DNA of 64,000 bases from Sphingomonas spermidinifaciens. GTDB taxonomy: Bacteria > Pseudomonadota > Alphaproteobacteria > Sphingomonadales > Sphingomonadaceae. The position numbers and the translations under genes are program-made. Positions 37,213-38,802 of this stretch are shown here, one piece after another. A model generated the notes under the pieces. That model saw only the letters and a list, made by a program, of their open reading frames with translations, ran no database searches and was not told the DNA's origin. The DNA is taken from assembly GCF_002351485.1 (NCBI RefSeq), contig NZ_NWMW01000001.1, positions 124,001-188,000 on the forward strand, written 5' to 3'. Every line of letters starts with the position of its first letter. Within the stretch, counting starts at the first letter, position 1.

Positions 37213-38802
37213 TCAGGCCGCCGCCTTCTTCCGCTCGGCCAGCTCCTCGTTGAGCATTTCCGCCAGCAAGAAGGCCAGCTCGATGCTCTGCCCGGCATTA
37301 AGCCGCGGATCGCAATGCGTGTGATAGCGATCGGCCAGCGCCTGCTCGCTCACCGCGATCGCGCCGCCAGTGCATTCGGTCACGTCCTGTCCCGTCATCT
37401 CAGCGTGGATGCCGCCGGCATGCGTCCCCTCGGCCCGGTGGACGGCGAAGAAGCCGCGCACTTCGGCGAGGATGCGCTCGAATGGCCGCGTCTTGTAGCC
37501 GGTCGCCGCCTTCACCGTATTGCCGTGCATCGGATCGCAGCTCCACACGACCGGATGCCCCTCGCGCTTCACCGCGCGGACGAGGGCGGGAAGGTGCGCC
37601 TCGATCTTGTCATGTCCATAGCGGGTGATGAGCGTCACCCGCCCCGCCACCCGGTGCGGGTTGAGCGTGTCGAGCAGGCGGAGGAGCGCATCGGGCTCAA
37701 GGCTCGGTCCGCACTTCATGCCGATCGGATTGCCGATGCCGCGCAGATACTCCACATGCGCCGACCCCTCGAACCGCGTGCGATCGCCGATCCACAGGAA
37801 ATGCGCGCTGGTGTCGTACCACTGGCCCGTTAGCGAATCCTGCCGCGTCAGCGCCTGCTCGTACGGGAGCAGTAGCGCCTCGTGACTGGTGTAGAAGTCG
37901 GTCCGGGCGAGCTGCGGCACCGTCTCCGGGTTGATCCCGCATGCTTCCATGAAGTCGAGCGCCTCGCCGATCCGATCGGCCACGTCTGCATAACGGTCGG
38001 CCCAGGGGCTGCGACCCATGAAGTCGAGCGTCCACTTATGCACCTGATGCAGGTTCGCATAACCGCCCTGCGCGAAGGCGCGCAGAAGGTTTAGCGTCGC
38101 GGCCGACTGCGAATATGCGCGCAGCAGGCGGGACGGATCGGGCACGCGCCCCTCGGGCGTGAAGGCGATGTCGTTGACATTGTCGCCGCGATAGCTCGGC
38201 AGCTCGACGCCATCGATCACCTCGGTCGGGGCCGAGCGCGGCTTGGCGAACTGGCCGGCCATGCGTCCGACCTTCACGGTCGGCAGCTTGGAGGCGAAGG
38301 TCAGCACGACCGCCATCTGGAGGATCACGCGGAAGGTGTCGCGGATGTTGTTCGGATGAAACTCGGCAAAGCTTTCGGCACAGTCGCCGCCCTGAAGGAG
38401 GAAGCCATGCCCCTCCGCCACGCGGCCAAGTTCGGCGGTCAGCTGCCGTGCCTCGCCCGCGAAGACGAGCGGGGGGAAACGGCCGAGCTCGGTCAGCGTG
38501 GCGTCGAGCGCGGCTTTGTCGGGATAGTCGGGCATCTGCCGCGCTTCGGCCGTCTGCCAGCTTGCGGGGGACCAGCTACCCATCACATTCTCCATGTTGC
38601 GCGCGGTGACGAACCAGTCGGCGTGGTGCGCGATGCCGTTGGCAGCGATCTGATTGACGATGGGGGCGGCGGCACGTTTGCCGTCCTCCTCCCAGCCCTG
38701 AACGGTGCTGCCCGGGGCACCATACCAGGTGCCAAACGCCGCCCGGCTGATGCCGCGCTGCTCGCGAAACCGTTTGATCTTGATGCCTGCCAACGTCGTC
38801 AT
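37213..38802 (-). CDS. Class II DAHP synthase with an in-frame N-terminal helix-turn-helix domain
   Basis: The first enzyme of the shikimate pathway, condensing phosphoenolpyruvate and erythrose-4-phosphate. Residues about 74-529 are a complete plant-like class II enzyme (WSPASWQTAEARQMPDYPD, LLQGGDCAESF with the metal-binding Cys, GRMAGQFAKPRS). Ahead of it, without any stop, are 73 residues reading MTTLAGIKIKRFREQRGISR then FGTWYGAPGSTVQGWEEDG, an XRE/Cro-like helix-turn-helix. A second start, ATG 38583 (MGSW), has GGAG six bases upstream and corresponds to the normal enzyme N-terminus. Either the protein is a DNA-binding/enzyme fusion, or two forms are made from one frame. Codon use is uniform through the junction. 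The catalytic identity is very sure; the fusion is seen but untested. Confidence 0.9.
   Translation of the reverse strand: MTTLAGIKIKRFREQRGISRAAFGTWYGAPGSTVQGWEEDGKRAAAPIVNQIAANGIAHHADWFVTARNMENVMGSWSPASWQTAEARQMPDYPDKAALDATLTELGRFPPLVFAGEARQLTAELGRVAEGHGFLLQGGDCAESFAEFHPNNIRDTFRVILQMAVVLTFASKLPTVKVGRMAGQFAKPRSAPTEVIDGVELPSYRGDNVNDIAFTPEGRVPDPSRLLRAYSQSAATLNLLRAFAQGGYANLHQVHKWTLDFMGRSPWADRYADVADRIGEALDFMEACGINPETVPQLARTDFYTSHEALLLPYEQALTRQDSLTGQWYDTSAHFLWIGDRTRFEGSAHVEYLRGIGNPIGMKCGPSLEPDALLRLLDTLNPHRVAGRVTLITRYGHDKIEAHLPALVRAVKREGHPVVWSCDPMHGNTVKAATGYKTRPFERILAEVRGFFAVHRAEGTHAGGIHAEMTGQDVTECTGGAIAVSEQALADRYHTHCDPRLNAGQSIELAFLLAEMLNEELAERKKAAA
38583..38593 (-). promoter_or_regulatory. Internal ribosome binding site before the canonical DAHP synthase start
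   Basis: On the minus strand GGAG (38593-38590) is followed by six bases and ATG (38583-38581), which encodes the MGSWSPASW start normal for plant-like class II DAHP synthases. It lies inside the open frame that also encodes the helix-turn-helix domain. It decides between a fusion-only product and an additional short product without the DNA-binding part. Confidence 0.5.

Follow-up and report, generated by a model that had tools for sequence, protein, structure and literature searches.

The 64,000-nucleotide window analyzed here (positions 124,001 to 188,000 of contig NZ_NWMW01000001.1, Sphingomonas spermidinifaciens, assembly GCF_002351485.1) contains a gene in which a helix-turn-helix (HTH) domain is joined in frame to a class II 3-deoxy-D-arabino-heptulosonate 7-phosphate (DAHP) synthase. 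We propose that the product is a trigger enzyme that likely binds one or two palindromes at its own promoter, thereby represses the gene encoding it and occurs as a long and a short form, a reading to which the comparative sequence evidence leads us to assign a probability of about 0.8. DAHP synthase is a textbook example of feedback control, exerted by allostery and by separate repressors. If the proposal is true, the enzyme itself would repress the gene that encodes it, and neither a second DAHP synthase nor TrpR was found in this genome.

The gene occupies 37213..38802 on the minus strand as a single 529-aa open reading frame (ORF) with an ATG start, and its two parts follow each other without a stop:

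38605..38802, minus strand: N-terminal HTH domain, residues 1-66, with a predicted Cro/CI-like fold (profile, AlphaFold2, structure comparison, conservation)
37261..38574, minus strand: class II DAHP synthase domain, residues 77-514 (PF01474, TIGR01358; closest solved chain 5uxm)

The enzyme part passed both the DAHP_synth_2 profile (PF01474; residues 77-514, 690.4 bits against a cut-off of 27) and the TIGR01358 equivalog profile (residues 77-519, 700.8 bits against 614.7). By profile membership it is a class II DAHP synthase, and catalysis with phosphoenolpyruvate and erythrose 4-phosphate is predicted. When the first 73 residues were searched against HTH profiles, as the preliminary description had suggested, HTH_31 of Pfam was matched weakly (E 8e-4, 20.1 bits) and under its curated cut-off of 27, so the domain was not filed as HTH_31. 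An AlphaFold2 model of the same residues, made with 35 family rows, had a mean predicted local distance difference test (pLDDT) score of 90.3 and placed helices at residues 4-16, 20-27, 31-39, 46-54, 60-64 and 67-70. Structure comparison found it to resemble the fold of the P22 c2 and 434 repressors, with middling scores, and the modeled domain has the five-helix Cro/CI (XRE) repressor fold. Profiles and model thus agree with the earlier reading of the frame as an HTH joined to a complete class II DAHP synthase; on the model, this is an enzyme with a DNA-binding domain, as a trigger enzyme should be, DNA binding itself being predicted. In the window genome, the DAHP synthase was the sole protein with the HTH domain, the next best match having an E of 0.54.

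The fusion is widespread among relatives. With residues 1-75 as query and candidates limited to 0.55-1.75 times 529 aa, 61 database proteins were retrieved, every one of which carries PF01474. Their database names, where given, state the enzyme alone, which is why the predicted regulation is invisible in annotation. A survey of 295 genomes of the window's genus, made with the 81-residue N-terminal part, gave matches in 122 and an in-frame fusion in 120 (hereafter carriers); the other two were a genome with a stand-alone relative only (G105) and a weak match (G265). Some fusions were cut or broken, with open frames of 335, 371 and 471 aa in G012, G299 and G262, respectively. Named carriers include Sphingomonas trueperi, S. 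gei and Sphingosinithalassobacter portus, and named DAHP synthases without the HTH include those of S. sanguinis, S. hankookensis, Novosphingobium, Sphingobium and Erythrobacter. A catalytic-domain tree of 110 rows, 17 of them carriers, required three changes, as for one gain and two losses. Codons 4-64 of the HTH gave a median ratio of non-synonymous to synonymous substitution (dN/dS) of 0.17 (1324 of 1500 random pairs kept). Because all 61 relatives carry PF01474 and the HTH codons show this ratio, the fusion is not a matter of chance. The preliminary description had also considered that homologs might have a conserved stop between the two parts, or lack the upstream part. The frame runs on in the relatives read and the HTH part is conserved, and on this comparison the fusion is no sequencing error.

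Just upstream of the gene lie the elements of its predicted promoter:

38812..38828, minus strand: proximal operator-like palindrome TTACCCAGATCGCGTAA, one mismatch to TTACCC-N5-GGGTAA, predicted to cover the -10 region
38836..38852, minus strand: distal operator-like palindrome TTACCCTTTTGGGGTTG, two mismatches to TTACCC-N5-GGGTAA, found by genome pattern search
38836..38838, minus strand: TTG, conserved in carriers and predicted to serve as a -35-like promoter element

Distinct carrier promoters (n = 107) were scored against TTACC-N7-GGTAA (10 positions). A wider promoter consensus was drawn from the 26 sequences long enough for the chosen frame; the counts use all 107. A palindrome preceded the ATG in every carrier, matching at 10/10 positions in 87, 9/10 in 14 and 8/10 in 6, and in every carrier it ended 8-12 nt before the ATG and had a TTG 8-10 nt upstream of it. 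A distal copy scoring at least 8/10 was found in 83 carriers, with a spacing of 33-36 bp in 68 of them. For comparison, 93 loci encoding a DAHP synthase that lacks the HTH were taken, of which 92 were usable; even in a wider 250-bp stretch, only 2/92 reached at least 9/10 and 7/92 at least 8/10. The exact 17-mer occurred anywhere in the genome in 95/120 carriers vs. 6/175 other genomes. Among the matches listed were 75 exact sites: 70 lay in the promoter of the fusion itself, one at another place in a carrier and four in non-fusion genomes. In the window genome, no site other than the proximal one of this promoter had fewer than two mismatches, and sites with at most two mismatches numbered 17 vs. 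41 for a reversed control pattern. The predicted regulator therefore has one clear target. A conserved candidate site is present at the promoter that a trigger enzyme of this kind would regulate, and its presence where the HTH is fused supports the earlier suggestion that the enzyme may carry its own repressor domain. Two exact TTACCC-N5-GGGTAA sites were also seen on either side of an S24-type CI-like phage repressor ORF in G106, a genome that lacks the fusion (L121, 2027-2043 and 2656-2672). Exact palindromes at L122-L124 had no evident link to a regulator gene and were taken as chance.

The same arrangement bears on the sign of regulation. The long form might activate its own promoter, or might also control the divergent gene; an ORF does start at 38931, opposite the DAHP synthase gene, so sites here are common to two genes, and the distal copy lies upstream of the TTG in most carriers. 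However, every carrier has the proximal site, and its place between the TTG and the nearby ATG would suit repression, and we consider activation or divergent control very unlikely.

Evidence for two forms comes from the two starts of the frame:

38800..38802, minus strand: long start ATG, predicted to be leaderless
38590..38593, minus strand: internal Shine-Dalgarno (SD) GGAG, six bases before the internal ATG
38581..38583, minus strand: internal ATG at codon 74, where an enzyme-only form is predicted to begin

None of the 107 carriers, all of which have an ATG start, possessed an SD-like word 4-10 nt upstream of the long start; from this and the spacing, the long-form mRNA is predicted to be leaderless. 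A linker Met just before the WxPxSW motif was found in 95/107 carriers. GGAG-N6-ATG occurred in 88 of these 95 and GGAG at 3-9 nt in 93, and GGAG was absent in 11 of the 12 carriers without the internal Met. The conservation is one of DNA: different residues (L, T, A, M, V, G, S, Q or P) precede the Glu, while the GGAG word and its spacing are kept. The third base of the codon before the Glu was G in 89/93 sequences, vs. 35.1 expected from the codon usage of these genes over their HTH part, and the Glu codon was GAG in 92/93, vs. 208 GAG to 195 GAA (208/403) in the HTH part. SD-like words preceded 93/95 internal ATGs, 0/107 long ATGs and 14/153 other in-frame ATGs (17 such genes).

Alternatively, the internal GGAG-ATG could be a relic of the start used before the fusion, with only the long form being made, in which case the autorepressor part of our proposal may still hold. 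Genes without the HTH do start at about the same place (18 loci), and 12/107 carriers live without the internal Met. Against a relic stand the G at the third position, the GAG codon and the spacing, all kept under a varying residue, and the rarity of SD-like words before other in-frame ATGs, and we think it unlikely. On these comparisons the internal ribosome-binding site is conserved at the DNA level, and long and short products are probably made in most species. The preliminary description had placed a GGAG-ATG start exactly at the enzyme N-terminus, which is where it lies (38583-38581, with the GGAG at 38593-38590 and the domain starting at residue 77). Its further suggestion, that one frame may give both a long and a short form, holds in so far as the internal site is conserved; the short form is not universal, given the 12 carriers without an internal Met.

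A second enzyme in the same family appears to carry the same device. In other genera, a related HTH (35-46% identity for most matches) opens frames of mostly 760-860 residues, and one such frame tested whole was a glutamine-dependent nicotinamide adenine dinucleotide (NAD) synthetase (CN_hydrolase plus NAD_synthase). Searching at the protein level yielded 85 relatives, of which 84 have CN_hydrolase; those with names belong to Tsuneonella, Croceibacterium and Porphyrobacter. The 38 loci scanned yielded 23 distinct HTH-NadE fusions. All 23 had GTATCC-N5-GGATAC at no fewer than 10/12 positions (17 perfect), in the same 17-bp geometry as the DAHP synthase site and mostly 26-27 bp before the ATG, and an SD-like word was missing at the start in 22. 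At the same threshold the palindrome was found in 0/30 HTH-free NAD synthetase genes of the window's genus, the start being uncertain for two of these loci (L296 and L301). The 25 genomes with an HTH-NadE fusion contained 23 exact sites, 19 at the nadE promoter; the remaining four lay inside reading frames and were taken as chance. The two fusions are alike in the related HTH, the geometry and place of the operator and the lack of an SD at the start. They differ in the enzyme, in the half-site (GTATCC vs. TTACCC) and in the linker Met, which in NadE lacks GGAG-N6. We read the HTH-NadE fusion with its own palindrome as an independent repeat that may be counted in favor of self-regulation. A linker Met was present in 18/23 HTH-NadE fusions (L128-L142, L177-L193), in many after an AAAGG-like word, and a second start is possible there. 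Of the 21 genomes from other families of the order (among G037-G060) that yielded a DAHP synthase, 17 had a gene matching NAD synthetase (~560 aa) beside it on the same strand, with gaps of up to ~770 bp; both HTH-carrying enzymes of the window's family are therefore neighbors elsewhere in the order.

Operator and protein may also change together. Both half-sites were altered in four carriers (two TTACGC, two TTACTC), and residue 30, which sits just before the predicted recognition helix, was not Pro in three of these four vs. 1/103 others. As two of the carriers are near kin, this is a hint and not proof. Stand-alone relatives of the HTH of ~80-125 aa (L101-L104) had a primase-like ORF and a divergently oriented XRE-like ORF nearby, domains having been tested in L101 only. 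A related palindrome preceded their ATG, scoring 8/10 at -27 in L103 and L104 and recognized by eye only in L101 and L102. These relatives suggest that the HTH domain came from a Cro-like regulator of a mobile element.

The HTH might instead have a structural role in the enzyme or be vestigial, like that of hydroxypropylphosphonic acid epoxidase (HppE), with the palindrome belonging to another regulator. Against this, the palindrome tracks the fusion (107/107 vs. 7/92 at the 8/10 level), the NadE fusions have a different palindrome of their own, and a few carriers show joint changes in operator and residue 30, and we judge this explanation quite unlikely.

Several observations nevertheless count against self-repression by a two-form enzyme. 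The HTH_31 match is below threshold, and a full-length AlphaFold2 model (25 close rows, one of which, P0061, is garbled by a frameshift) reached a pLDDT of 43 and was not used. The distal copy scoring at least 8/10 is absent in 24/107 carriers, and the window's own sites, with one and two mismatches, are among the weaker ones and have an unusual distal spacing of 24. Given the pair of sites at L121, other repressors may use such TTACCC palindromes. Carriers cluster on the tree, so their counts are not independent, and the Fisher tests of carriers vs. non-carriers ignored kinship. The lack of the internal Met in 12/107 carriers belongs with these points.

In the mechanism that we favor, a dimer or tetramer of the enzyme would present paired HTHs to TTACCC-N5-GGGTAA. 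The palindrome, lying between the TTG and the ATG, would cover the -10 region and block RNA polymerase. An mRNA beginning at or near the long ATG would give the long, DNA-binding form and the internal GGAG-N6-ATG a second, HTH-free enzyme, such that one gene would encode a repressor-enzyme and a plain enzyme, and mixed oligomers of the two would tune repression. The result would be a homeostat with a single target, the one DAHP synthase detected in the window genome. Repression as the sign of regulation, the form of the oligomer on DNA, a leaderless mRNA and a role for any ligand are what we infer from sequence. Substrates or aromatic end products bound to the enzyme part might alter DNA binding, in line with the proposal of the preliminary description that an aromatic ligand could set transcription. 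More tentatively, and at somewhat less than even odds, a mobile-element Cro-like domain may have been grafted at least twice in one family onto unrelated biosynthetic enzymes, DAHP synthase and NAD synthetase, each becoming a single-target self-repressor with its own operator; the DAHP synthase gene would then yield a leaderless repressor-enzyme and a plain enzyme from the internal SD, with the catalytic part sensing the state of the pathway to gate repression. The recurrence with NAD synthetase points to a portable route to self-limiting enzymes, requiring a domain of ~70 residues and a 17-bp site, and such HTH-operator self-limitation could serve the engineering of aromatic production.

The HTH was also searched for more widely. 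Among 346 genomes of the order, 69 had a match, all in the window's family, and the strong matches consisted of the DAHP synthase fusion, the NadE fusion and a few shorter frames. A class-wide profile search matched 14/337 genomes; the 10 outside the family were weak (E 4e-7 to 7e-4), and the nine inspected (all but L281) resembled XRE-type proteins of other kinds and were left out of the counts. At L275 and L284, in other alphaproteobacterial families, an HTH with STVQGWK or TTVQGWK lies in large frames, perhaps another HTH fusion. A search for stand-alone copies of the 73 residues gave 10 matches, all of at most 123 aa and, in the nine with a contig given, on contigs of <3 kb; they were taken as fragments of fusions, and the Bacillus and Parvimonas labels among them look like contamination. 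None of the 23 pattern matches in viral contigs was a relative. In G026, a single-contig genome, a second fusion copy was matched in pieces (C1:3913923-3915503 and 18850-20430), perhaps an assembly overlap.

Among the literature matches listed (in some searches the best 10-20 of many), mostly from outside subscription papers, no description of an HTH-DAHP synthase or HTH-NadE fusion was found. Two papers present PutA, BirA, NadR and PepA as trigger enzymes of E. coli (PMC8249747, PMC6245113) and PutA as a single-target regulator at its own promoter (PMC8249747). The window protein is predicted to resemble all four as an enzyme doubling as a transcription factor, and PutA in acting at its own promoter on a single target; the four are, however, other enzymes. 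PutA further differs in its DNA-binding fold, a ribbon-helix-helix, and two starts are predicted for the window gene; we know of no second, enzyme-only start of this kind for PutA, BirA, NadR or PepA. The DNA-binding domains of the P22 c2 and 434 repressors (3jxb, 2r1j, 2or1) are alike in fold, at 14-18% identity to the window domain, which differs in being fused to a biosynthetic enzyme. The catalytic domain aligns over nearly its whole length with the class II DAHP synthases 5uxm and 2b7o, of Pseudomonas aeruginosa and Mycobacterium tuberculosis, respectively, but the alignment begins at window residue 75 or 86 and the chains, of 453-472 aa, leave no room for such an HTH. HppE, too, is an enzyme with an N-terminal HTH-like domain, for which, to our knowledge, no linked operator is known. 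In contrast to an HTH of that type, which would have no DNA site linked to it, the domain described here has a linked palindrome in the DAHP synthase and the NadE fusions alike.
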